From: a virus
DNA length: 30,001 nucleotides
IMG/VR virus record: IMGVR_UViG_3300046820_000420
Location: 1 to 30,001 of that record
Direction: 5' to 3' (one strand)
Shown: in pieces, positions 4,020 to 15,447 of the stretch
How the letters are laid out: every line of letters begins with the position of its first letter
Position numbering within the stretch: the first letter of the stretch is position 1
Notes under the pieces: generated by a model
Told to the model about the DNA's origin: nothing
Seen by the model: the letters and a program-made list of their open reading frames with translations, nothing else
Databases searched by the model: none
Made by a program: the position numbers and the translations under genes

Positions 4020-4658
4020 ATGGCATATACAAGAGGTACTAGCAACAACATCATCGTTGGTGCAGCAGCACTTTTCACATATGATCTAGGCAACTTAACT
4101 GATGCCGATCTACCAGCATACCAGGTTGCAACATCATTTAGAGAGACACTTTCTAATGATGCAGACTTCCGCAATGTTGGTTACACAATGAACGGACTTG
4201 AACTACAGTTCCAACCTGACTTTGGTGAGGTTTCTGTAGACCAGGTACTTGACGTTGCAAAGTTGTACAAGCAAGGTATGCAGGTTAACCTAAATACCAC
4301 ATTTGCTGAAGCAACACTTGAGAACCTTCTCTTCGCACTAGCATCATCAGAGGACAACCTTTCTGAAGCAGACGGCGTTGGCGTTGGAGCAAACTCAAAG
4401 GAACTTAACCTTTCTGCAGGAGACTTGGGCGAATGTCCAGTTGAGCGTGGTTTGGTTGCAGTAGGTCCAGGTACAGGTGACTGTGCACTAGGATCTTCAA
4501 TTGAACGTGTTTATGTAGCATACCGTGCACTCTCAATCGAGAATGTTACAGTATCTGCAAAGCGTGACGAAGCGACAATGTTCGAAGTATCATTCCGTCT
4601 TCTTCCAAACGATGATGCATCATACGGTAAGATCGTAGATCGCACTATCCCAGCATAA
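4020..4658 (+). CDS. major tail (tube) protein
   Basis: 212 residues. ATG 4020 has a good ribosome site (AGAGGTGA) about eight bases upstream. The protein is a soluble beta-rich subunit opening AYTRGTSNNIIVGAAALFTY, with a segment that alternates strands and a helix (VDQVLDVAKLYKQGMQVNLN) and a C-terminal strand set (NVTVSAKRDEATMFEVSFRL). This matches tail tube proteins of actinophage siphoviruses, which stack as hexameric rings around the tape measure. Arginines are mostly CGT or CGC, as in the capsid gene and unlike the low-copy neighbours, which supports very high expression. It lies just before the chaperones and tape measure and is bracketed by its own promoter and a strong terminator. 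Confidence 0.8.
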   Translation: MAYTRGTSNNIIVGAAALFTYDLGNLTDADLPAYQVATSFRETLSNDADFRNVGYTMNGLELQFQPDFGEVSVDQVLDVAKLYKQGMQVNLNTTFAEATLENLLFALASSEDNLSEADGVGVGANSKELNLSAGDLGECPVERGLVAVGPGTGDCALGSSIERVYVAYRALSIENVTVSAKRDEATMFEVSFRLLPNDDASYGKIVDRTIPA

Positions 4659-4675
4659 TACAACTTAATAACATT

Positions 4676-4716
4676 ATTGCCCTTCTCATTAACTTGAGCG
4701 GGGCAATTTTGTTTTT
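4676..4716 (+). terminator. strong rho-independent terminator after the tail tube gene
   Basis: ATTGCCC (4676-4682) pairs perfectly with GGGCAAT (4701-4707), and an inner CTCA (4685-4688) pairs with TGAG (4695-4698) around a TTAACT loop. The stem is followed by TTTGTTTTT (4708-4716). This is the clearest terminator in the window and separates the high-copy tube gene from the low-copy chaperone gene. Confidence 0.85.
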
Positions 4717-4724
4717 GGTATACT
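4716..4724 (+). promoter_or_regulatory. extended -10 promoter giving a leaderless chaperone transcript
   Basis: TGGTATACT (hexamer TATACT at 4719-4724) is followed by exactly six bases and then the ATG at 4731. With the standard -7 position for the last hexamer base, the transcript would start at the A of the ATG. The six bases TGTAGG contain no usable Shine-Dalgarno. A weak TTGAGC at 4694-4699 could act as -35 with a long 19-base spacer. Confidence 0.55.
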
Positions 4725-4730
4725 TGTAGG

Positions 4731-5414
4731 ATGGCTACAAAAGTATACGAAAGCGACTACATAATATTGGTAGATGGTACAGAGGTTTTTGTCACACCAT
4801 TAAAGATAAAATATTTAAGAGAGTTCATGCATGCATTTGAAAATGTCAAGGGTGCAGGAAATGACGATGCTGCTATCGATGGTCTAGTCGAATGTGCAAG
4901 GATATGTATGAAGCAGTATTATCCAGAAATATCAAAGTCAACAGATCTTATTGAGGATGCAATGACATTAAAAGATATATATAGACTATTAGACATTGCT
5001 GCTGGTATTAAGGTAAATGAAAAATCTGAAGAGCCAGTTCAGAAACAGGCAACAGAAAGTGGCTCAACTTGGGAAACATTAGATTTAGCAAAACTTGAGT
5101 CAGAAGCATTTCTTCTTGGCATATGGAAAGATTATGAGGAATTAGAGAAATCAATGTCTATGCCAGAAATAATGTCAACGCTATCAGTAAAAAGAGAGTT
5201 AGATTATGCAGAAAAGAAATTTCTTGCAGCAATGCAGGGTGTTGATCTAGATAAGGAGTCTGGAAAACAAAATGAATGGGAAGCCATGAAAGCCAGGGTA
5301 TACAGTAAGGGCGCAGCAAAGGACCCTAATGATATACTTGCATTACAGGGACAAAACGCTGCAAACAAAGGTTTTGGAATTGGCATGGGGCTAACCTATG
5401 AAAAGATTGACTAG
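4731..5414 (+). CDS. tail assembly chaperone, long (G-T-like) form encoded without frameshift
   Basis: 227 residues. Residues 1-95 match the product of the next gene (shared LVDGT, PLKI, LR.F, C..., MKQY.PE, ED and Y at similar spacing). Residues 110-227 form a second domain (MSMPEIMSTLSVKRELDYAE; DPNDILALQGQNAANKGFGI) that I recognise as the T-type half of actinophage tail chaperones. In lambda the G-T fusion is made by a rare -1 frameshift; here both halves are in one continuous frame. All five arginines are AGA or AGG, and there is no Shine-Dalgarno, so low expression is likely. The protein would hold the tape measure and recruit tube subunits during tail assembly. Confidence 0.75.
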   Translation: MATKVYESDYIILVDGTEVFVTPLKIKYLREFMHAFENVKGAGNDDAAIDGLVECARICMKQYYPEISKSTDLIEDAMTLKDIYRLLDIAAGIKVNEKSEEPVQKQATESGSTWETLDLAKLESEAFLLGIWKDYEELEKSMSMPEIMSTLSVKRELDYAEKKFLAAMQGVDLDKESGKQNEWEAMKARVYSKGAAKDPNDILALQGQNAANKGFGIGMGLTYEKID

Positions 5415-5428
5415 TTCGAAAGACTAGT
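5410..5428 (+). terminator. short hairpin after the long chaperone gene
   Basis: ACTAGT (5410-5415) and ACTAGT (5423-5428) form a six-pair stem with a seven-base loop that spans the TAG stop codon, followed by TTG. The stem is short and the U run poor, so it may be a weak attenuator or simply chance. Confidence 0.3.
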
Positions 5429-5431
5429 TTG

Positions 5432-5440
5432 TGATATAAT
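5432..5440 (+). promoter_or_regulatory. extended -10 promoter of the short chaperone gene
   Basis: TGATATAAT has both TGn and a perfect TATAAT (5435-5440). The predicted start near 5447 leaves a leader of about 18 bases containing AGGAGG at 5455-5460, four bases before the ATG. TTGACT at 5407-5412 is too far upstream (22-base spacer) to be a normal -35. Confidence 0.6.
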
Positions 5441-5464
5441 TAACTAACTATAACAGGAGGAACA

Positions 5465-5788
5465 ATGGCTGAAAAAGCAAACAGCAAGACAGTTACACTA
5501 GTAGATGGAACCACATTACAGGTTCAACCACTAAAGATTTCACTACTTCGTCCATTCGTAAAGCGTTTTGGCGATCTCGCATTAGTTGCAGATGATAATG
5601 ACAAGTCAATGGACGTGCTCCTTGATTGTGTGCAGATTGCAATGAAGCAGTACAAGCCAGAACTTTCAGAGAACAAGGAATCCCTAGAAGACCTTCTAGA
5701 TCTTCCAACAGTATACGAGATCATTGAGGCTGCATCAGGAAGCGATGCTGCTACAAACAATAATCTTATTGCAACAATCAGCAAGTAA
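5465..5788 (+). CDS. tail assembly chaperone, short (G-like) form
   Basis: 107 residues, a paralogue of the first 95 residues of the upstream gene and lacking the T-type half. ATG 5465 follows a perfect AGGAGG. Both arginines are CGT and the codons generally resemble those of the capsid and tube genes, so this copy looks tuned for abundance. In lambda-like systems the short G form greatly outnumbers G-T; a separately promoted short gene would achieve this without frameshifting. The gene ends 23 bases before the tape measure start. No second open frame after its stop could encode a T half: the tape measure frame is closed by TGA at 5806. It presumably coats the tape measure protein. Confidence 0.75.
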   Translation: MAEKANSKTVTLVDGTTLQVQPLKISLLRPFVKRFGDLALVADDNDKSMDVLLDCVQIAMKQYKPELSENKESLEDLLDLPTVYEIIEAASGSDAATNNNLIATISK

Positions 5789-5804: not shown

Positions 5805-5831
5805 ATGAAAATTGTCAGACGTCAATGCTAA
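5805..5831 (+). other. eight-codon mini-ORF overlapping the tape measure start
   Basis: An ATG at 5805, four bases after the purine run AAAAGGGGG (5792-5800), opens a frame encoding MKIVRRQC that ends at TAA 5829-5831 and overlaps the TTG start of the tape measure gene. The ATG is spaced better from the ribosome site than the TTG. It could lower tape measure initiation, or it could mark a one-base assembly error in the AAAA run. Confidence 0.35.
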
Positions 5832-8800
5832 TATAGGCATAAATATAAACACGGCTGACGCCTTAGCACAACTAAGAACACTTCAGGCTGGTTTAAGCAA
5901 ATTTCATCAAACACTTGCTCAAGGAAACCTTGCAGCAACAAATGCACAAAAGGGTCTTAATGCACAACTTATCCAGTCAGTTAATGCGACTGGAAAGTTT
6001 GCTGCATCTCAGGTAAAGGTAGCAACAAGTACTCAGGCGTTTACATCTGCGCTTGAGAAAAACAAGTTAAGCATGGGGCAGTACTTTAGGTACACCGCTG
6101 CTGCTGCAACAGCAAACACAAAGTCTTTAACAAATATGTTTGCTCAAGAGCGTGAGATTATTAACCGTGCCCGTAGAGATAGAGTCAAGGCTTTACAGAC
6201 ACAATACGTTCAATTACAAAAGGCCAATGGTGGCTTTGCTGATGCAATAAAGATCATGCCAAAAACGCTGATGATGGCTAATGGCCAGTTTACAGAACTT
6301 GGCACAAGAATTCAGTATGCTGCACAAAGACAGCAATTTTTAAATCAGTTACTAAAGCAAGGTTCTACACAACTTCTGAACTTTGGTAAGAATACGCAGT
6401 GGGCAGGTCGCCAGTTGATGGTTGGTTTGACAATGCCTTTAGCAATGCTTGGATCATATGCAGCAAAGGCTTTCAAAGAAATGGAAGCAGCAGTAATAAA
6501 GTTTGAGCGTGTATATGGTGATGCTTTTACTGATAGCGCAGCAACAGATGTCGCAGTTGAAAATATTAAAAGAATTGCAAACGAGTACACAAAGTTTGGT
6601 GTTAGCGTAACAGAAACAATGGAGATGGCAGCAACCGCTGCTGCTGCAGGTTTCCAGGGGTCAGCACTTAATGCTCAGGTAAGAGAAGCAAACAAGTTAG
6701 CAGTCCTTGGTCAGGTTGAACTACAACAGGCTCTAGATACAACAATATCTTTGCAAAATGCCTTTGGTCTTTCTACTGAAGAACTAGCAAAAAAGATTGA
6801 CTTCCTTAACGCAGTTGAAAACCAAACAGTATTATCTATTGAAGATCTAACAATTGCAATTCCTAAAGCAGCACCAGTTGTAAAGCAACTTGGTGGAGAT
6901 GTTGAAGATCTTGCATTCTTCATGACTGCAATGAAGGAAGGCGGAATCAACGCATCAGAAGGCGCTAACGCATTGAAGTCTGGTCTTGCTTCTATGATTA
7001 ATCCAACTAAGAAAACTTCTGAAATGCTTGCAGCAATGGGCATTAATATCAAGGGTGTTGTAGAAGCAAACAAGGGAGACCTAAAGGGTACTGTAGTTGG
7101 TTTTGCAAGAGCGCTAGATGAATTAGATCCACTAAACCGTGCAAGAGCAATTGAACAACTTTTTGGAAAGTTCCAGTTTTCAAGAATCTCAACATTATTT
7201 CAGAACGTTGTAAAGGATGGGTCACAGGCATCTCGTGCACTTCAATTGTCTGGTGCATCACTAGAAGAACTAGCAATCATCTCTGAACGAGAAATGGGAA
7301 AGATTGAAGATTCTGTTGGAGTAAAGTTCCAGGCAGCGGTAGAGCAATTCAAGCAAACAATTATGCCAATAGGAAAAGAGTTCCTAGAAGCACTAACACC
7401 AATTATAAAATTTATAGGTGGATTATTTGAAAAGTTTAATAACCTATCTGACGGAACAAAGAAGTTTGTAACTGTAATTACAGCAGTTGTAGCAGGCATT
7501 GGCCCAATCTTCCTTATGACATTTGGTTTGCTTGCTAACGGTCTTGCAAACTTGATTAAACTTTTTGCATTAATCAGAGGTGGAATGGCAAAGTTAAATG
7601 GCCAAAACAAAATGCTTGGCGGAGGTTTTGATTATTTAACTCAGCAAGAAATCGAAAACCTATCATCATCTAATGCATTGCATGGATCTCACCAAAGACT
7701 TATTCAGGTATTTAATGTTGAAAGCGCATCGCTGCAAAAACTTGCGGGTTCATATGCAAATGCAGCATCACAAGCAAGAGCATTGGCAGCATCCTCTCCT
7801 GGACTATTTGCATCTCCTGGTGCCACATCTGCAGTATCTGGTTTACCTGGAGGAAAAGGTAAGCCAGTTAAAAAGTATGCAGGTGGAGTTTTACAGGTTC
7901 CAGGTCCAAAGGGTGCAGGAGATATTCAACCAGCACTGCTTGCTCCAGGAGAAGCGGTTATACCAGCGGATGTAACTGCAAAGAATATTGGATTCCTACA
8001 TGCAATGATGGATGGAAAAATTCCAGGACATATGGCAGGAAAACTTCCAGTAAGACCAGCATTCCACGCAAAGCCAGATGAGCAGCAATCAGGTGCCAAG
8101 TTCCTTGGTATGCCAAAGTCAATTGCGGAAGTAACACAGTCAAGACAGATTGCAGATAAAATTTCTGAGGCGGTTGCAAAGAGTCAGTTTGGCAAAGTTC
8201 CACCAACAGATTTTGGAACACTTATACAAGGAACATCTGGAAGAAGTTTCCCTATTCCAAATGTTGGCGGTATATACAGAAAGCCAAATGGAGAAGTAGT
8301 ATTCGTTAAACCAGCAGTAGATGCAACCTCTGCACTTGCGGAGGAACGTGCAACAATTATTGCAAGAAAAGCACATGGACTTAAGGCACCAGAACAAACA
8401 ATTAAAACAATGATGGATCCAACAGATCTCACTGGAAAAAGAAAGTTAATTGTACTTGAGTCACCATATGATCCAAAATTAGCAGAAGCAAGTGGTAAGT
8501 TCACTAAGAAGCAAATGGTAACACAACTTGTTGCATCACTTCTTCGTGGAGATAAAGATTTGTCTAAGTCTAATGTTTTTGGAGGAACCCTAGCAGACGT
8601 TGGTCCAGCAGGAGTCTTTGGTAGAGCATCAGGGTTTAGAGAGATCCAGCCACAAATGCCTTCTATGCAAGATCAAGCAATGATTAATCTTTTGGGTGTA
8701 AAGGGTGGAGCACGAAAAGACTTTGCATTATCTACTGCAGATATAGCAAAGAAGATGACACCACAAGAGTACAATGCTGCAGTAAATGGAGAAATTAACA

Positions 8801-11800
8801 GAGTTCTTCCAAAATTAAAGAAGACTATTGCTGGAATGAACTTACCTGCAGATGAGGCTGTTCCATACAATGCAATGATTGCTCGTCTTGAAGCAGGCAG
8901 AAGTGTTCAGTGGGATCAGTTCCAAAAGATCCACGCAGCAGCAGGATCCCCAGTTAAAAAACTTTCTACTGGCGTTCTTCCAGAATTAACCCCAGCACAG
9001 AAGAGTCAGTCACAAGTTGAAATGCAAAAGTTTTTTGATTGGGCAGATCAAAGAGTTAAAGACTCACAACTGGCACCTGAATTTAAGGGTAGATGGGATA
9101 AATCAACAGGTGGTGCATTTAGACAAAGCCTTATGGAAAAGATGGTTTACGACGCATCTACTGGAACATTCTGGACTAATCAGGGTGGAACGAATGGAGT
9201 AAGCCTAGAAAGAATGAAGGAGCGATTTGAGTATCGCTTTGGAATAAGTCCAGATCCAAAAACTGGTAAGTATGTAAAGTCTAACCTATTCAATATTAAT
9301 AAATTTTTAAGCAATGTAACTTCTGGTGGTGCATCTAAAAAGGGTGGAGACATACGGACAAATAATCCAAAGGCAGCAAAAGTTTGGGACGAAGTTAAGG
9401 CTGCAGCAGCAAATCCAGGAGGAATAAAGTCTGACACAACAATAAGAAAGTATGTAGACTTCCTTGCAAACATGAAGGATGCAAATGGTAAGCCAACTGA
9501 GTTAGCCCAAGGACTTACTTCAAAAAGTCTTAAGGCTCGCAAGGCTGCTATGGAGCAAGTTGATAAGATGTTTAAACTTGATGCATCCCATGCACAGGCA
9601 GTTAGAGTATATGATAGTTTAGAAGATGCAGCAGCAGGAAAATCAAGACCAGCAGCAAAGTCAGAAAAGTATTCTGCTGGAGTAATGGGTCCAGACTATA
9701 GAGTTGTAAATGAGTATGTAAAAACAAATGACCCATCACAAAAGAACAGATTCCAAGAAATTCTTGATTGGAATAATAAAAAAGGCAACCCACTTAATTT
9801 AGATAACGCACAGACTACAAAAATTCAGGCTGCTATTCAAGCAATCATGAAAGAAGAGAATCACCCATTTGAGCCAAAGAATCAGAAGCATGTAAAGGCA
9901 CTTGCAGAACTTGAGGTACTGGCAAGAGATACAGTTGCTAAAAATCCATCACTTGGTAAGGGTTTAAATATAAGTAAAAATCCTAATTCATACATGAACG
10001 CAAGACTAGTTCAAGAGATCATGTCTCAGAGAGTTGCAGACTCAGGCTGGTTTAAGAGAATGAATGAAAACAAGATGTTTATCAATACAGACATACTTGA
10101 TGAAAAGGGAAGACCAACTCGTGGTGGATTAGAAACTGTAAGAAAAACAGAGTACTACCGTGATCCAGTTACTGGAAAGTTTATTCCTTACACTGGACAA
10201 AACACTCTTCCTGTTTCTACTGGTAAGGTAACAAACAAAGGAACTGAAACTAGAACTCCAGATACTACAAAGACTGGTGGCGGACCAACTGCAACAAAAT
10301 CACAAGCAAAAACTTTTGCTATAAAAAGAGAAAAGGGCGATCCAAGATTCCAGGTAGCAGAATCAGGCTTAAGCAAGGCAGCCCAAGGAAGAGTAACAAA
10401 TGCTGTTCAAGAGCAAGCAAGACTACTAAAGTTAAGAAATAATTTAACAAGAGATGAAATCAATCAGGCTCTTGCATTATACAAAAAGAGAGTAGTTGCT
10501 GCTGAAGTAGAAAAAAGCAATACTATTGCACAAGAAAAAAGAATGCGTGAGCAAGCAAAAGCCGAGCAAGCACGAGTAGTAAGCGCTAAAGATGCTGCAA
10601 AGCAAGAAAAAGCAAATAAGAGAATGGCTCGTCAGGAAAAGGTTGGAAGATATTCTGGAGGAGCGGGTGCAGCACTTGGTGGTATTGCCATGGGCGCAAT
10701 GATGACAGGGGCCGACTCTAAGGTCACTGGTGGTCTATTTGCGGCCTCCGCAGTTGCTGGTATGGCTCCAATGCTAACTAACCCATATGCAGCAGCAGGC
10801 ACGGCTGCAGTGGCTCTTGCTGCTGGTTTGTTCATGCTTGATAAGTCTGCAAAGGCAGCAGCAGAATCACAATCTAAACTAGTTGACTCCACATTTGCAA
10901 CAACAGAAAAAATGAAGTCTATTGGAGAACTTACTGGAAAAGTTGGGGCTTCAGAAATATATGCACGAAAGAGATCAACATCTGTATCAGACAGATACAC
11001 AACAGGATTTGAAAGAGGAAAGCAGCCATTTGGATCTACATTCTTAGAAAATGAAGCAGGCAAGGGAATCATGTCTACATTTGTTGAGAACATGAAGTCT
11101 GGAACTGATACAGCAGCAAGACAAATGGCAGTTCAATTATCTGGATATGTTTCAGATGGAGTTATGACTGCAGAGCAAGCACACAGTGTTGCAAGTCAAA
11201 TCGGAATTAATTTAAACAATCAAACACTTACTTCTCAAATAAGTGGACAGTTGTTAGACCTCATTGGTCCATCTGGAGAAGACCTACTAAAGAATCCATT
11301 AGAGGTAAGAGTAAGATTAGTTGAAGAACAACGAGATTTATCAAAGTCTGCTACAGATCTTTTTGCAAAAGATATGCAGGCTTATTCAAAAACATTTGGA
11401 GATCAAAGCGGTGGCTTAAATCTTGGAGTTTCAGATTATTCTTGGGGAGAGTTGTTTGGTCAAACTGGATCAGAAAAACTTGCATCACAAACTGCAGCAA
11501 TGGGTGCACAAAACTTAGAGTTTAATCAAGCACAAATCGACTCACTGAATCTTCAATATGATAAAGAGTTAAAGATACTTGAAACTCAAAAAGCAGCAAC
11601 AGCAGATGCTGCAAAGAGAAAATTAATAGATGATCAGATTTCTGCACTAGAAACCAAGAGGGCAACAGGGGTTGAGGCTTTAAGAAAGACGAACAACGAA
11701 ATATTAAATGATCAACTTGCTGCATTTAAGATTGCACAACAAAGAAGCGCAGTAGAAGATGCATTCTTTGACTCGCTTAAAGATCAGGTAAGAACAAAGT

Positions 11801-14800
11801 ATAAGGGAACAGCCCAAGAAGCATTTGTAGATCCATTGCTAAAATCTACAGCAAAACTAGAAAGCAAAGAGTTAGAGGTTAAGGTAAATACCATAGTTGC
11901 TTCAGGCCAGATGCCTCCAGCAACAGCAAATGCACTTTTAGAAATGTTTGCTGGTGAAGAAACAGAACTAGACACATTTATTAATACAACAACACAGTTG
12001 CACGACCCAGGCAAGGTTGCTGAGTTGGTTAACTCACTTGGTGGAATAAAGAATAAGAAAACTGCTAGAGATATTATTACTAAGATTACAAGCAAAGATC
12101 CAAAAACAGCAGACAAACTTATGTCAACCGTTGCACTTATGCAAAAAATGGCTGGTAAGGAAATCAACATTCAGGCGTTCTTTGAGCAAGAAGATGCTAT
12201 GACAAAACTTGAAGATCTTAAAGACGAACTTGAAGAAGTTGAAAAAATGCCAACACCAATTACAAAAGAAGCAATTGCTAAAGTAGATACTGACGGAGAT
12301 GGCACAGTAGAAAATATGGATGCCTTGCTTGCGGTATGGGATCAATGGGGCAACCTTCCAGATGAAACAAAGAAAACTGTTGTTCAGGAATATATTACTC
12401 TGCTAAGGACAATTACAGAAGGTGATATCGATGCAGAAATTGCAAAGCAAAAGGCTGCTGCACCTTCTCAAATGGGTTCATATTACGATGCAAAGTCTAG
12501 CAACCCCGCTGCAAGAGAGCAAGTCAAGTCGCAACTAGCAGCAGAAAGAACAATGCAAGCAACTAAGCAAGCCATTGCCTCTGCTAAAGCAAACAAACTT
12601 GGAGATGATTCAAAGAATGGATCAAAAAAGGCTGACCCAATTAATGATATTTTAAGAAGATTAAAGGAAGTTAGACTTGCATCTCTAAATGCAGCAGGAG
12701 GAATTACAGAATTATTTAAGGCTGTTGGAGATGGGAAAAAGGTTAAGGGCGTAATTGGAGATGTCTTTAATGGTATGCAGCAGCAACTAACCAAGAAGGG
12801 CGCAAACCAACAGTTTATTGATTTCCTAACATCTATGATTGGCGATCCTGCAGAACTTGGTAAGTACATGAAGACTGCCACAAAAGCAACAAGTGGAAAA
12901 AATAAGGGCAAGGTTGTAGATCCATTTACTGGTAAGGTAATTAAGGGCGGTAAGGTTGGAGATGTTGTTCTATCTGATAATGCAAAGGCAGCACAAGCAG
13001 GACTAACTAAGGCAATTGGTGGAGAATATAACGCAGCACAACTTAAGGCAATTACAAATGATAAAGACCGTGCAAAGGTTATGGAGAGAATTACCACATT
13101 AGCAAAGACAAATAATAAGTTTGTTATTGATAATGCAACCCTACAAAATATTCTAAATGATGAATACTATGTAACTGAACTTGCTGCTGGAAGAATAACA
13201 GATGCAGAATTTGAAACAAATACTCAACTTGCAAAGCAGGCAGAACTAAGACAAAAGATTAATGGTATTGTTACAGAAGGCTTATCAGCAGGTCAAGAAA
13301 TTGCAGACAAGGGTAGAATTGGAGAACTTCTCAAGTTTATGAAGGAGACAACTGATCTGCCTAAGTTGTCTGAAAATGCATTGCTTGACATGATTAAAGA
13401 TCCAAACCAACTTTCTGCAGCCATCGCTGCAATGGATATGTATAAGACTGGTATTGAGAAGGTACCAGCAAGTTTACAAAAGGTTGTAGATGGACTTAAC
13501 AATGTTCAAAAGAATGCAAAGATTCAAGGGTACATAAACTTTGCATCACAAACAGTACCACAAAAGATATCTCAGGGTGCAGCCTCAGCACAGAACGTTT
13601 TGAGTGTAAAGGCAAGACTAAGAGAAAGAATGAGCATCTCTGAACTAAGAAAATATGGAACTAAGGCAAATCCTAATATGGGAGAAACTGCATATCAGAA
13701 TGCAGTAAAGGCTACTGGGGGTGCACCACTTACTGGTGGAGGAAAGAGTTTAAATCAGATTCAGGTTGCTCGTCAAGGTCTTGCATCACAAATGAATTTG
13801 GTTCAGGCACGAGCAAATCAAATACAAAGAGAAATTTCTGCAAAGGAAGACGAATTAAATAAGGCAATAGATGATAAAAATAAGTACTATGATAAACTTA
13901 TAGATACAGAAAAGGATCTTATTGAGGCTAATGAGTCTAAACTTAAAAAAGAATTTACAGACCTTATTGATACAAAGCAAAAGGAATCAAACAAGTTAAG
14001 CAATGACCTTGCAATAATTAACCATCAAGAAGAAAAAATAAATGAAGTTTACGATGAAAGAATTAAGGCTTTAACAAAGACACAGGAAATAAATCAAAGA
14101 CTTATATCTCAGCAGCAAACTCAACTTGGACTTGCAGATGCAATAACACAGGGTGACATTGCTGCAGCAGCACAGGCTGCTCAAGAAATGAGATCTCAGA
14201 ATGCTGCAGCCTATGCAGAAGATACAACTAATGCGCTAACTCAAGCACGAGATAACCAGATTAAGGGGCTTAGAGGTGCAGAGTCAGGAATGACTAAGGC
14301 ACAAATTAATGAGCGTCAATATCAGATATCACAAGAAATTTATAAACTTGAAACAAATCCTGCACGTCTTGCAATCGTTGCAGCAATTGAAGCATCACAA
14401 GCAAAGATTACTAAGTATGAAAAGGACAGGTCTATAGAGATTGATGCAATTAATGCTAAGTATGCAACAGAGATTGCTAATCTGAATACAGCACTTACAA
14501 CACAGAACAATATACTTAGCGCTTTAGAATCACAGGATGCAGCACTTGCTGCACAAGAGGCAGAACTATTGCTTATTCTAGATAGTTTGGCAGATATGGA
14601 TGACCTTGCTGGTAAAACACTAAAAGACTTTGAGGATATGGTTCTTAAGGCTGAGGCAATGGCAAGTGCACTAGAAGAGGATATTGTTCAGGCAATGATG
14701 GCAATAGAAGCAGACTCTGCGTCCGCTGCTGGTTCTTGGACTAGCATCCTAGACTCAATAAATGCTCTTCCAGAATCAATAAGCATTCAAAGCATTATTA

Positions 14801-15447
14801 ACGAGGTTAGAAATATAACTGAGCACATTACACGATACATCAAGACCATTTATGAGGATGGTGGATCTGACGATAGTTCTGATAGCAGTTCAAGTTCTTC
14901 AACTAAAAACACAACAACTAAGAGCCCAACTACTGCTCCAACAACTAAGGCTACTGGAAATACTGCAGCAACAACATCTTCTCCAAGTTCATTGGCTTCA
15001 AAAGAAAACGGTTTAATTGGAGCAGCATCTATGGCTGCAGCAGCAGCAGCAAAAGCATCTGCAGCACTGGCAGCAGCAGGTGCAAAATCAAATACAGCAA
15101 AGAACAATCTTAGCGGTGGTTCTTACTTCTCCTCTAATTGGACTGGTAAGTCTTCTGGAGGGCTAATACCTAAGTACTTGGCCGCTGGTGGTTTTGCTAA
15201 AGGAACAGACATTGTTCCAGCAATGCTAACACCTGGAGAATTTGTAATGAGCAAGTATGCTGTAGATACCTATGGTGTTGATAGAATGAAGGCAATTAAT
15301 TCTGGATCAGACAATTCTTCAGCAGTGTATAATTATGAGTTAGTAGTAAATGTTAAGTCTGATGCCAATGCAAGTGATATTGCAAATACAGTAATGGCTA
15401 AGATTAAGCAGGTAGACGATATGAGATTAAAGGGGAATAGATTCTAA
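5812..15447 (+). CDS. tail tape measure protein, very long, with extra modules
   Basis: 3211 residues, the largest gene here. The TTG at 5812 is the first possible start, since TGA closes the frame at 5806; the resulting N-terminus, MSDVNANIGININTADALAQ, fits tape measure proteins. Residues about 220-500 form the TP901/PhageMin-type core, followed by a hydrophobic stretch near 553-590. Residues 685-1530 hold modules separated by PVKK(Y/L)xxGV(L/M)-like linkers; one resembles a kinase fold (about 815-945). A charged coiled coil precedes a Gly/Ala-rich hydrophobic segment at 1616-1676. An EF-hand loop lies at 2159-2170. Long coiled coils cover 2670-2770 and 2820-2950, then a Ser/Thr-rich linker (3016-3060), an Ala-rich helix, and a GG...GTDIVPAMLTPGEFVM motif at 3116-3146. 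At roughly 1.5 angstrom per residue it would imply a tail near 480 nm if fully extended, so globular insertions are likely. Confidence 0.93.
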   Translation: MSDVNANIGININTADALAQLRTLQAGLSKFHQTLAQGNLAATNAQKGLNAQLIQSVNATGKFAASQVKVATSTQAFTSALEKNKLSMGQYFRYTAAAATANTKSLTNMFAQEREIINRARRDRVKALQTQYVQLQKANGGFADAIKIMPKTLMMANGQFTELGTRIQYAAQRQQFLNQLLKQGSTQLLNFGKNTQWAGRQLMVGLTMPLAMLGSYAAKAFKEMEAAVIKFERVYGDAFTDSAATDVAVENIKRIANEYTKFGVSVTETMEMAATAAAAGFQGSALNAQVREANKLAVLGQVELQQALDTTISLQNAFGLSTEELAKKIDFLNAVENQTVLSIEDLTIAIPKAAPVVKQLGGDVEDLAFFMTAMKEGGINASEGANALKSGLASMINPTKKTSEMLAAMGINIKGVVEANKGDLKGTVVGFARALDELDPLNRARAIEQLFGKFQFSRISTLFQNVVKDGSQASRALQLSGASLEELAIISEREMGKIEDSVGVKFQAAVEQFKQTIMPIGKEFLEALTPIIKFIGGLFEKFNNLSDGTKKFVTVITAVVAGIGPIFLMTFGLLANGLANLIKLFALIRGGMAKLNGQNKMLGGGFDYLTQQEIENLSSSNALHGSHQRLIQVFNVESASLQKLAGSYANAASQARALAASSPGLFASPGATSAVSGLPGGKGKPVKKYAGGVLQVPGPKGAGDIQPALLAPGEAVIPADVTAKNIGFLHAMMDGKIPGHMAGKLPVRPAFHAKPDEQQSGAKFLGMPKSIAEVTQSRQIADKISEAVAKSQFGKVPPTDFGTLIQGTSGRSFPIPNVGGIYRKPNGEVVFVKPAVDATSALAEERATIIARKAHGLKAPEQTIKTMMDPTDLTGKRKLIVLESPYDPKLAEASGKFTKKQMVTQLVASLLRGDKDLSKSNVFGGTLADVGPAGVFGRASGFREIQPQMPSMQDQAMINLLGVKGGARKDFALSTADIAKKMTPQEYNAAVNGEINRVLPKLKKTIAGMNLPADEAVPYNAMIARLEAGRSVQWDQFQKIHAAAGSPVKKLSTGVLPELTPAQKSQSQVEMQKFFDWADQRVKDSQLAPEFKGRWDKSTGGAFRQSLMEKMVYDASTGTFWTNQGGTNGVSLERMKERFEYRFGISPDPKTGKYVKSNLFNINKFLSNVTSGGASKKGGDIRTNNPKAAKVWDEVKAAAANPGGIKSDTTIRKYVDFLANMKDANGKPTELAQGLTSKSLKARKAAMEQVDKMFKLDASHAQAVRVYDSLEDAAAGKSRPAAKSEKYSAGVMGPDYRVVNEYVKTNDPSQKNRFQEILDWNNKKGNPLNLDNAQTTKIQAAIQAIMKEENHPFEPKNQKHVKALAELEVLARDTVAKNPSLGKGLNISKNPNSYMNARLVQEIMSQRVADSGWFKRMNENKMFINTDILDEKGRPTRGGLETVRKTEYYRDPVTGKFIPYTGQNTLPVSTGKVTNKGTETRTPDTTKTGGGPTATKSQAKTFAIKREKGDPRFQVAESGLSKAAQGRVTNAVQEQARLLKLRNNLTRDEINQALALYKKRVVAAEVEKSNTIAQEKRMREQAKAEQARVVSAKDAAKQEKANKRMARQEKVGRYSGGAGAALGGIAMGAMMTGADSKVTGGLFAASAVAGMAPMLTNPYAAAGTAAVALAAGLFMLDKSAKAAAESQSKLVDSTFATTEKMKSIGELTGKVGASEIYARKRSTSVSDRYTTGFERGKQPFGSTFLENEAGKGIMSTFVENMKSGTDTAARQMAVQLSGYVSDGVMTAEQAHSVASQIGINLNNQTLTSQISGQLLDLIGPSGEDLLKNPLEVRVRLVEEQRDLSKSATDLFAKDMQAYSKTFGDQSGGLNLGVSDYSWGELFGQTGSEKLASQTAAMGAQNLEFNQAQIDSLNLQYDKELKILETQKAATADAAKRKLIDDQISALETKRATGVEALRKTNNEILNDQLAAFKIAQQRSAVEDAFFDSLKDQVRTKYKGTAQEAFVDPLLKSTAKLESKELEVKVNTIVASGQMPPATANALLEMFAGEETELDTFINTTTQLHDPGKVAELVNSLGGIKNKKTARDIITKITSKDPKTADKLMSTVALMQKMAGKEINIQAFFEQEDAMTKLEDLKDELEEVEKMPTPITKEAIAKVDTDGDGTVENMDALLAVWDQWGNLPDETKKTVVQEYITLLRTITEGDIDAEIAKQKAAAPSQMGSYYDAKSSNPAAREQVKSQLAAERTMQATKQAIASAKANKLGDDSKNGSKKADPINDILRRLKEVRLASLNAAGGITELFKAVGDGKKVKGVIGDVFNGMQQQLTKKGANQQFIDFLTSMIGDPAELGKYMKTATKATSGKNKGKVVDPFTGKVIKGGKVGDVVLSDNAKAAQAGLTKAIGGEYNAAQLKAITNDKDRAKVMERITTLAKTNNKFVIDNATLQNILNDEYYVTELAAGRITDAEFETNTQLAKQAELRQKINGIVTEGLSAGQEIADKGRIGELLKFMKETTDLPKLSENALLDMIKDPNQLSAAIAAMDMYKTGIEKVPASLQKVVDGLNNVQKNAKIQGYINFASQTVPQKISQGAASAQNVLSVKARLRERMSISELRKYGTKANPNMGETAYQNAVKATGGAPLTGGGKSLNQIQVARQGLASQMNLVQARANQIQREISAKEDELNKAIDDKNKYYDKLIDTEKDLIEANESKLKKEFTDLIDTKQKESNKLSNDLAIINHQEEKINEVYDERIKALTKTQEINQRLISQQQTQLGLADAITQGDIAAAAQAAQEMRSQNAAAYAEDTTNALTQARDNQIKGLRGAESGMTKAQINERQYQISQEIYKLETNPARLAIVAAIEASQAKITKYEKDRSIEIDAINAKYATEIANLNTALTTQNNILSALESQDAALAAQEAELLLILDSLADMDDLAGKTLKDFEDMVLKAEAMASALEEDIVQAMMAIEADSASAAGSWTSILDSINALPESISIQSIINEVRNITEHITRYIKTIYEDGGSDDSSDSSSSSSTKNTTTKSPTTAPTTKATGNTAATTSSPSSLASKENGLIGAASMAAAAAAKASAALAAAGAKSNTAKNNLSGGSYFSSNWTGKSSGGLIPKYLAAGGFAKGTDIVPAMLTPGEFVMSKYAVDTYGVDRMKAINSGSDNSSAVYNYELVVNVKSDANASDIANTVMAKIKQVDDMRLKGNRF
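7864..9699 (+). repeat. repeated linker motif delimiting tape measure modules
   Basis: Three dispersed copies of a related motif occur in the tape measure: PVKKYAGGVLQVPGP at residues 685-699, PVKKLSTGVLPELTP at 1047-1061 and EKYSAGVMGP at 1285-1294. The first continues into GAGDIQPALLAPGEAVIP, and a related GG...GTDIVPAMLTPGEFVM lies near the C-terminus (residues 3126-3146). The copies divide residues 685-1530 into blocks of about 350, 235 and 235 residues. The PA.L.PGE.V element is common in tape measure proteins; its role is unknown to me. Confidence 0.6.
8251..8655 (+). other. candidate HipA/PI-kinase-fold domain inside the tape measure
   Basis: Residues about 814-948. In order: GGIYRKPNGEVVFVKP, whose K833 could be the ATP-binding lysine; an EER helix with E844/E845 and HGLKAPEQT, resembling the lobe after the alpha-C helix; LIVLES as a hinge-like strand (879-884); RGDKDLSKSN with D916 and N921 five apart, the same spacing as D309 and N314 of HipA; and ADVG with D929 as a DFG-like metal ligand. 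The usual histidine of the D-x-H-x-x-N loop is replaced by S918. All of this is motif reading; the fold is inferred. Confidence 0.45.
12286..12321 (+). other. EF-hand / dockerin-like calcium loop inside the tape measure
   Basis: Residues 2159-2170 read DTDGDGTVENMD, matching D-x-D-G-D-G-x-V-x-x-x-D with ligand positions 1, 3, 5, 7, 9 and 12 all acceptable (D2159, D2161, D2163, T2165 backbone, E2167, D2170). It is followed by a helix (ALLAVWDQWG). Only one loop is evident; a partner loop was not found nearby. Confidence 0.65.

Follow-up and report, generated by a model that had tools for sequence, protein, structure and literature searches.

Most long-tailed phages make the tail assembly proteins G and G-T from one gene by a programmed frameshift. 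Few recoding events in phages are as well conserved, and the reason for its retention is an open question. The viral locus studied here belongs to a large uncultured lineage with Streptomyces phages among its relatives, and it raises the question of whether, and how, a phage lineage has done without the frameshift. An initial annotation of this DNA proposed that two genes replace the frameshift, one with a G-like and a T-like domain in a single frame and the other with a G-like domain only, and that duplication, separate promoters, and codon tuning set the same ratio of products. We considered this proposal for the window (the whole stretch of DNA that was analyzed, 30,001 nucleotides from IMG/VR virus record IMGVR_UViG_3300046820_000420) and for its relatives. 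In the window, the two genes have the gene for the major tail protein upstream and that for the tape measure protein downstream, and the features of the locus are as follows:

4020 to 4658, plus strand: major tail protein gene (PHROG 2175, "protein with Ig domain," E = 2.4e-31; same place in annotated Streptomyces relatives).
4676 to 4716, plus strand: terminator-like hairpin, AUUGCCCU...GGGGCAAU and then UUUGUUUUU, predicted from folding energy and conservation.
4716 to 4724, plus strand: predicted extended -10 of the long gene, TGGTATACT, with its hexamer 6 nt upstream of the start codon at 4731 (a leaderless-type promoter layout).
4731 to 5414, plus strand: long gene, 227 amino acids in a single frame, the putative equivalent of GT (TAC-NC), based on ORF, PHROG, BLASTP, and HMMs.
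4731 to 5018, plus strand: G-like domain of the long gene, residues 1 to 96 (PHROG, BLASTP, HMMs).
5061 to 5411, plus strand: T-like domain of the long gene, residues about 111 to 227 (PHROG 10474; homology to the -1 frame T ORF of Streptomyces phages).
5432 to 5440, plus strand: extended -10 TGATATAAT, predicted to be the short gene's promoter, 24 nt upstream of the start codon.
5455 to 5460, plus strand: Shine-Dalgarno sequence AGGAGG of the short gene (sequence; anti-SD duplex energy).
5465 to 5788, plus strand: short gene, 107 amino acids, the putative equivalent of G (TAC-N) and a paralogue of the long gene's G-like domain (ORF, PHROG, BLASTP, HMMs).
5812 to 15447, plus strand: tape measure protein gene (PF10145, PhageMin_Tail, E = 1.8e-28).

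By analogy with lambda, the major tail protein would be the partner of the T domain. The tape measure gene is probably carried on the short gene's transcript. It apparently starts at TTG 5812, within an overlapping 8-codon ATG ORF (ATGAAAATTGTCAGACG...TAA) at 5805 to 5831, and a similar start region is kept in three close relatives (L004, L006, and L009). The tape measure protein has 3,211 amino acids here versus about 2,100 in BillNye; roughly residues 770 to 1010 appear to be an insert that is unlike tape measure proteins (GTSGRSFPIPNVGGIYRKPNGEVVFVKP...) and is perhaps kinase-like by eye.

The two open reading frames have the positions given in the initial annotation, and their products are paralogous in the way that had been proposed. 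They are 40% identical over 86 amino acids (BLASTP, E = 8e-21), with the short product aligning to residues 8 to 92 of the long one. PHROG 10504 matches residues 1 to 106 of the long product (E = 2.8e-21) and residues 8 to 93 of the short product (E = 1.4e-12), and PHROG 10474 matches only the long product (residues 131 to 194, E = 3.6e-14). In other words, both share one N-terminal domain, and the long product has an additional C-terminal domain in the same frame. This T part, ESGSTWETLDLAKLESEAFLLGIWK, aligns with GSGSTWEELDLAKLEAEVFLLGMWK of the -1-frame T ORF of the Streptomyces phage BillNye, and tblastn finds similarity to the tail assembly chaperones of Streptomyces phages (best E = 7e-32). 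The predicted secondary structure of the G-like domain is alike in both: a beta hairpin, then helices.

To place the locus among its relatives, HMMs for the G-like and T-like domains were run over the stop-to-stop frames of all loci. The in-frame order, with the G-T gene followed by the G gene, was found in 242 loci fetched from IMG/VR (136 distinct G pairs), and 36 loci (25 distinct) have only one G, with T in a different frame; no mixed form was seen among these 242 and 36 loci. The single-G type comprises Streptomyces phages of the Stanwilliamsviridae, the Rhodococcus phages Trina and Francesca, and metagenomic loci such as L280 to L287. The chaperone of Francesca is annotated as a joined gene, and cultured Stanwilliamsviridae have the gene order major tail protein, tail assembly chaperone, second ORF, and tape measure protein. 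Judging from these cultured relatives, the host is likely an actinobacterium; a peptide-pattern scan of bacterial genomes found no relative. The G proteins of Trina, Francesca, and a metagenomic relative (L215:2519-3001, L216:2471-2995, and L279:2022-2459) contain an extra charged stretch within the G-like domain, which splits the HMM match in two.

When 127 G domains were placed in a tree with the Rhodococcus phages as the root, the long-G and short-G domains fell together (support 100/99), apart from the frameshifting G genes. The short-G domains form a clade (99/95), the long-G domains are one side of a weakly supported branch (55/63), and the group labels need three changes, which is the minimum. 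The tree, which unites both G copies apart from the frameshifting phages, supports a single old duplication; the simplest reading is that one copy was then fused in frame and the other lost its T part. The duplication, whose age the initial annotation had left to such a tree, thus appears to be old and not recent.

The copies may have diverged in role and not simply in dosage: the short protein might coat the tape measure protein, for example, and the long protein might act only at initiation. Besides the low identity of the two copies and their separate tree groups, the short G is more conserved than the long G in 80% of locus pairs (mean identity of 67% versus 58%). However, the shared secondary structure speaks against subfunctionalization, as do the start signals described below, which still split high from low expression as expected. 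We view it as possible, if somewhat unlikely, and it is compatible with a dosage mechanism instead of exclusive of it.

Start signals and codon use were compared across 55 dereplicated loci, whose promoter and codon traits descend from one ancestor and so represent one conserved design, not 55 independent events. An extended -10 precedes the long gene in all 55 loci; the spacing between hexamer and start codon is 6 nt in 41 of them and 6 to 9 nt in 52. The short genes also have an extended -10 in 55 of 55 loci, 24 to 37 nt upstream, and the hexamer is a perfect TATAAT (TGnTATAAT) in all but one. Among upstream regions with shuffled mononucleotides, 4 to 6% have an extended -10 that matches at 5 or more of the 6 positions. 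The two genes differ in their Shine-Dalgarno sequences: the median anti-SD duplex energy is -11.1 kcal/mol for the short genes versus -2.8 for the long genes and -7.1 for the major tail genes, and in the window, the short gene has AGGAGG and the long gene has no Shine-Dalgarno sequence. They also differ in upstream structure. The hairpin before the long gene has a z score below -3 in all 55 loci (median -5.5), compared to a median of -0.4 for the region before the short gene. The stem in the window runs from 4676 to 4707 with a U tract after it, and the region from 4659 to 4720 has a folding energy (dG) of -23.7 and a z score of -7.1. Divergent loci (L222 to L276) show the same start-signal pattern.

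These signals suggest that the major tail protein mRNA probably ends at the hairpin, which would shield the long gene from it; the long gene's own transcript would start on its AUG and be leaderless. Of the promoters in the initial annotation, the short gene's own promoter stands; the leaderless-type promoter of the long gene (4716 to 4724) had been missed. Alternatively, the long gene might be expressed by read-through from the major tail mRNA, with the -10-like sequence a by-product of the T-rich tail of the terminator. Generic promoter and terminator scans of the window listed neither the promoters nor the hairpin, probably because the promoters lack a good -35 and the hairpin stem is interrupted, and the U tract of the hairpin does abut the extended -10 (4708 to 4724). 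Read-through is nevertheless improbable: it does not account for an extended -10 at a near-fixed distance from the start in 55 of 55 loci (versus 4% of shuffled regions at the threshold of at least 5 of 6 matches) or for a strong hairpin before the -10 in all loci, and the long genes lack a good Shine-Dalgarno sequence for internal initiation.

The layout of the frameshifting phages suggests how the two sets of signals arose. In most of these phages, G is preceded by a hairpin, a -10-like element about 22 to 30 nt before the start, and a strong Shine-Dalgarno sequence, in that order. The hairpin and -10-like element lie between the major tail gene and G in most frameshifting Streptomyces phages (L163, L164, and L167 to L221), so a separate transcript for the chaperone and the tape measure protein is probably ancestral. 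Relative to this layout, the short gene retains the -10 and the Shine-Dalgarno sequence, and the long gene retains the hairpin and the -10 without the Shine-Dalgarno leader, which we infer was deleted.

Codon use differs between the two genes in the same direction as the start signals. In the window, all 5 arginine codons of the long gene are AGA or AGG (none are CGN) and both arginine codons of the short gene are CGT; here the initial annotation was exact, as it was for the Shine-Dalgarno sequences and for TGATATAAT. With the major tail genes as the reference, the median codon adaptation across the 55 loci is 0.70 for the major tail genes, 0.63 for the short genes, 0.56 for the tape measure genes, 0.51 for the gene upstream of the major tail gene, and 0.485 for the long genes, and the short gene is better adapted than the adjacent long gene in all 55 pairs. 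AGA and AGG account for 91% of the arginine codons in long genes, 54% in short genes, and 15% in major tail genes. The separate start signals and codon tuning that had been proposed for the window are thus conserved across these loci. Together, they point to more short than long protein, as proxies that give the direction of the difference and not the ratio. Leaderless mRNAs can be well translated in actinobacteria, so a missing Shine-Dalgarno sequence alone is no proof of low output from the long gene.

Among the single-G loci, all 15 dereplicated ones of the Streptomyces type have a -1 shift, and their overlap contains CCCAAAT (read as C CCA AAT in the frame of G) or CCCGGAA (C CCG GAA). The long genes of the 55 dereplicated loci have no conserved slippery heptamer. 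Instead of a lambda-type -1 frameshift, all two-gene loci have G and T in one open frame, and they match the T4-like type of arrangement as it is defined in PMC10885494: a short gene plus a long gene fused in frame, without a frameshift. Some long genes do contain a heptamer around codon 103 (AAAAAAA is one example) with stops soon after it in the -1 frame, as would be expected if the long gene still gave a G-only product by frameshifting and the short gene had another role. This is very unlikely, as no heptamer is conserved in position, 20 of the 55 long genes (including that of the window) lack any heptameric slippery site after residue 60, and the short gene is kept in every locus that is long enough to show it, except L012. 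In L012, the short gene runs into unrelated sequence (L012:3750-4100) near the contig end, and the contig is probably chimeric.

Other apparent exceptions also have simple explanations: L145 has a one-base deletion near the contig end relative to L144, and the contigs of L020, L027, L211, L269, and L273 end within 0 to 119 nt of the T match. We also considered a frameshift joining the short gene to another frame, which the initial annotation had named as evidence that would count against two separate genes. In no locus does a T-like match follow the short gene, and in the window, the tape measure frame is shut by a TGA at 5806 to 5808, just upstream of its start. Duplication with loss of the frameshift, as first proposed, is supported by the tree, the 242 in-frame loci, and the lack of a conserved heptamer.

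The chaperone function of both products is predicted from synteny and homology, with modest structural support. No Pfam family was above the cut-off, a sequence search against solved structures returned nothing usable, and the PHROG families matched by the two products are of unknown function. The model of the short product (pLDDT 79) has the HK97 chaperone 2ob9 as its best PDB match, which is weak (Foldseek E = 0.58; Z 5.2, rmsd 4.6, 87 aligned). The model of the long product (pLDDT 77) matches, among viral models, the GT protein of N15 (E = 3e-3, probability 0.98) and proteins named tail assembly chaperone; its top Foldseek matches in the PDB were noise only, with 2ob9 at Z 4.1, tied with unrelated chains. 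It is scarcely credible that the products are instead unrelated small proteins of unknown function, as the Pfam and PHROG results might suggest, given their position between the major tail and tape measure genes, their homology to annotated Streptomyces and Rhodococcus chaperones with T in another frame, and the HK97 and N15 structural matches.

Overall, the locus is very probably a two-gene tail chaperone system that replaced the programmed -1 frameshift, including the predicted start and dosage signals. We also think it fairly likely that a whole siphovirus-like lineage dropped the frameshift once, by duplication and in-frame fusion, and that the G:GT ratio is now set by a leaderless start for GT versus a strong Shine-Dalgarno start for G, so that a different molecular device would keep the ratio. 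All two-gene relatives share one duplication of the G/T locus; the first copy reads G and T in one frame, and the second copy has only G. Under the proposal, the mRNA of the major tail protein would stop at the hairpin just before the long gene, which would be made sparingly from its extended -10, with a leaderless start, no Shine-Dalgarno sequence, and poorly adapted codons. The short gene, with its own extended -10, strong Shine-Dalgarno sequence, and better codons, would be made in excess, together with the tape measure protein. If the products act like their lambda counterparts, the tape measure protein would be coated by many copies of the short protein (G), the T domain of a few long (GT) copies would bring in the major tail protein, and both chaperones would leave the finished tail.

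Relatives with and without the frameshift on one tree, combined with contrasting starts, offer a natural test of whether dosage alone or another use of the frameshift (coupling in time or place) matters. For annotators, the implication is that a frameshift should not be forced onto every chaperone locus.

The lambda proteins G and G-T both bind the tape measure protein, and the T part binds the major tail protein; the G:G-T ratio is about 30:1, and neither protein is in the virion (PMC5009743). The locus resembles the system of lambda and other long-tailed phages in its short and long products with a common N-terminal domain, in its position between the genes for the major tail protein and the tape measure protein, and in the small share of the long form that is expected. 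It differs in having two genes, T in the frame of G, no conserved slippery site, and separate promoters and start signals. The Stanwilliamsviridae (BillNye, BoomerJR, Wofford, Annadreamy, and Coruscant), Trina, and Francesca have homologous G and T domains and the same gene order, and the Streptomyces phages share the hairpin and -10-like element upstream of G and the strong Shine-Dalgarno sequence. However, these phages have a single G gene and their T lies in the -1 frame; those of the Streptomyces type carry the slippery sequence CCCAAAT or CCCGGAA.

Two other groups of actinobacteriophages invite comparison. Leaderless mRNAs are predicted in cluster O mycobacteriophages (PMC4351075), where, as here, the promoter is placed for transcription to start on the first base of the start codon, but their leaderless mRNAs have no link with the chaperone genes of the tail, where a frameshift is used. 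For Gordonia phages of cluster DJ, the authors of PMC12859696 found no candidate chaperone gene with a slippery site, and the gene between the two major tail genes lacks one, so these phages may have a non-frameshift arrangement like that of this locus.

The closest arrangement is that of some T4-like phages, in which a fused long gene accompanies a short one and no frameshift is used, according to the account in PMC10885494, citing Vladimirov, Gautam and Davidson 2022. The two-gene kind is therefore already known, and the present variant is apparently independent. The T4-like phages are myoviruses of another lineage; in the 127-domain tree, the present G genes group with the frameshift genes of the Stanwilliamsviridae, so that close frameshifting relatives place the switch on the tree, and the contrast between leaderless and Shine-Dalgarno starts is conserved. 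A search of the open-access literature found no report of this two-gene variant in this lineage. Three things seem to be new: the apparently independent origin of the arrangement in a lineage that has frameshifting relatives, the fixation of this arrangement throughout a broad metagenomic group, and the conserved contrast between a leaderless start and a Shine-Dalgarno start.
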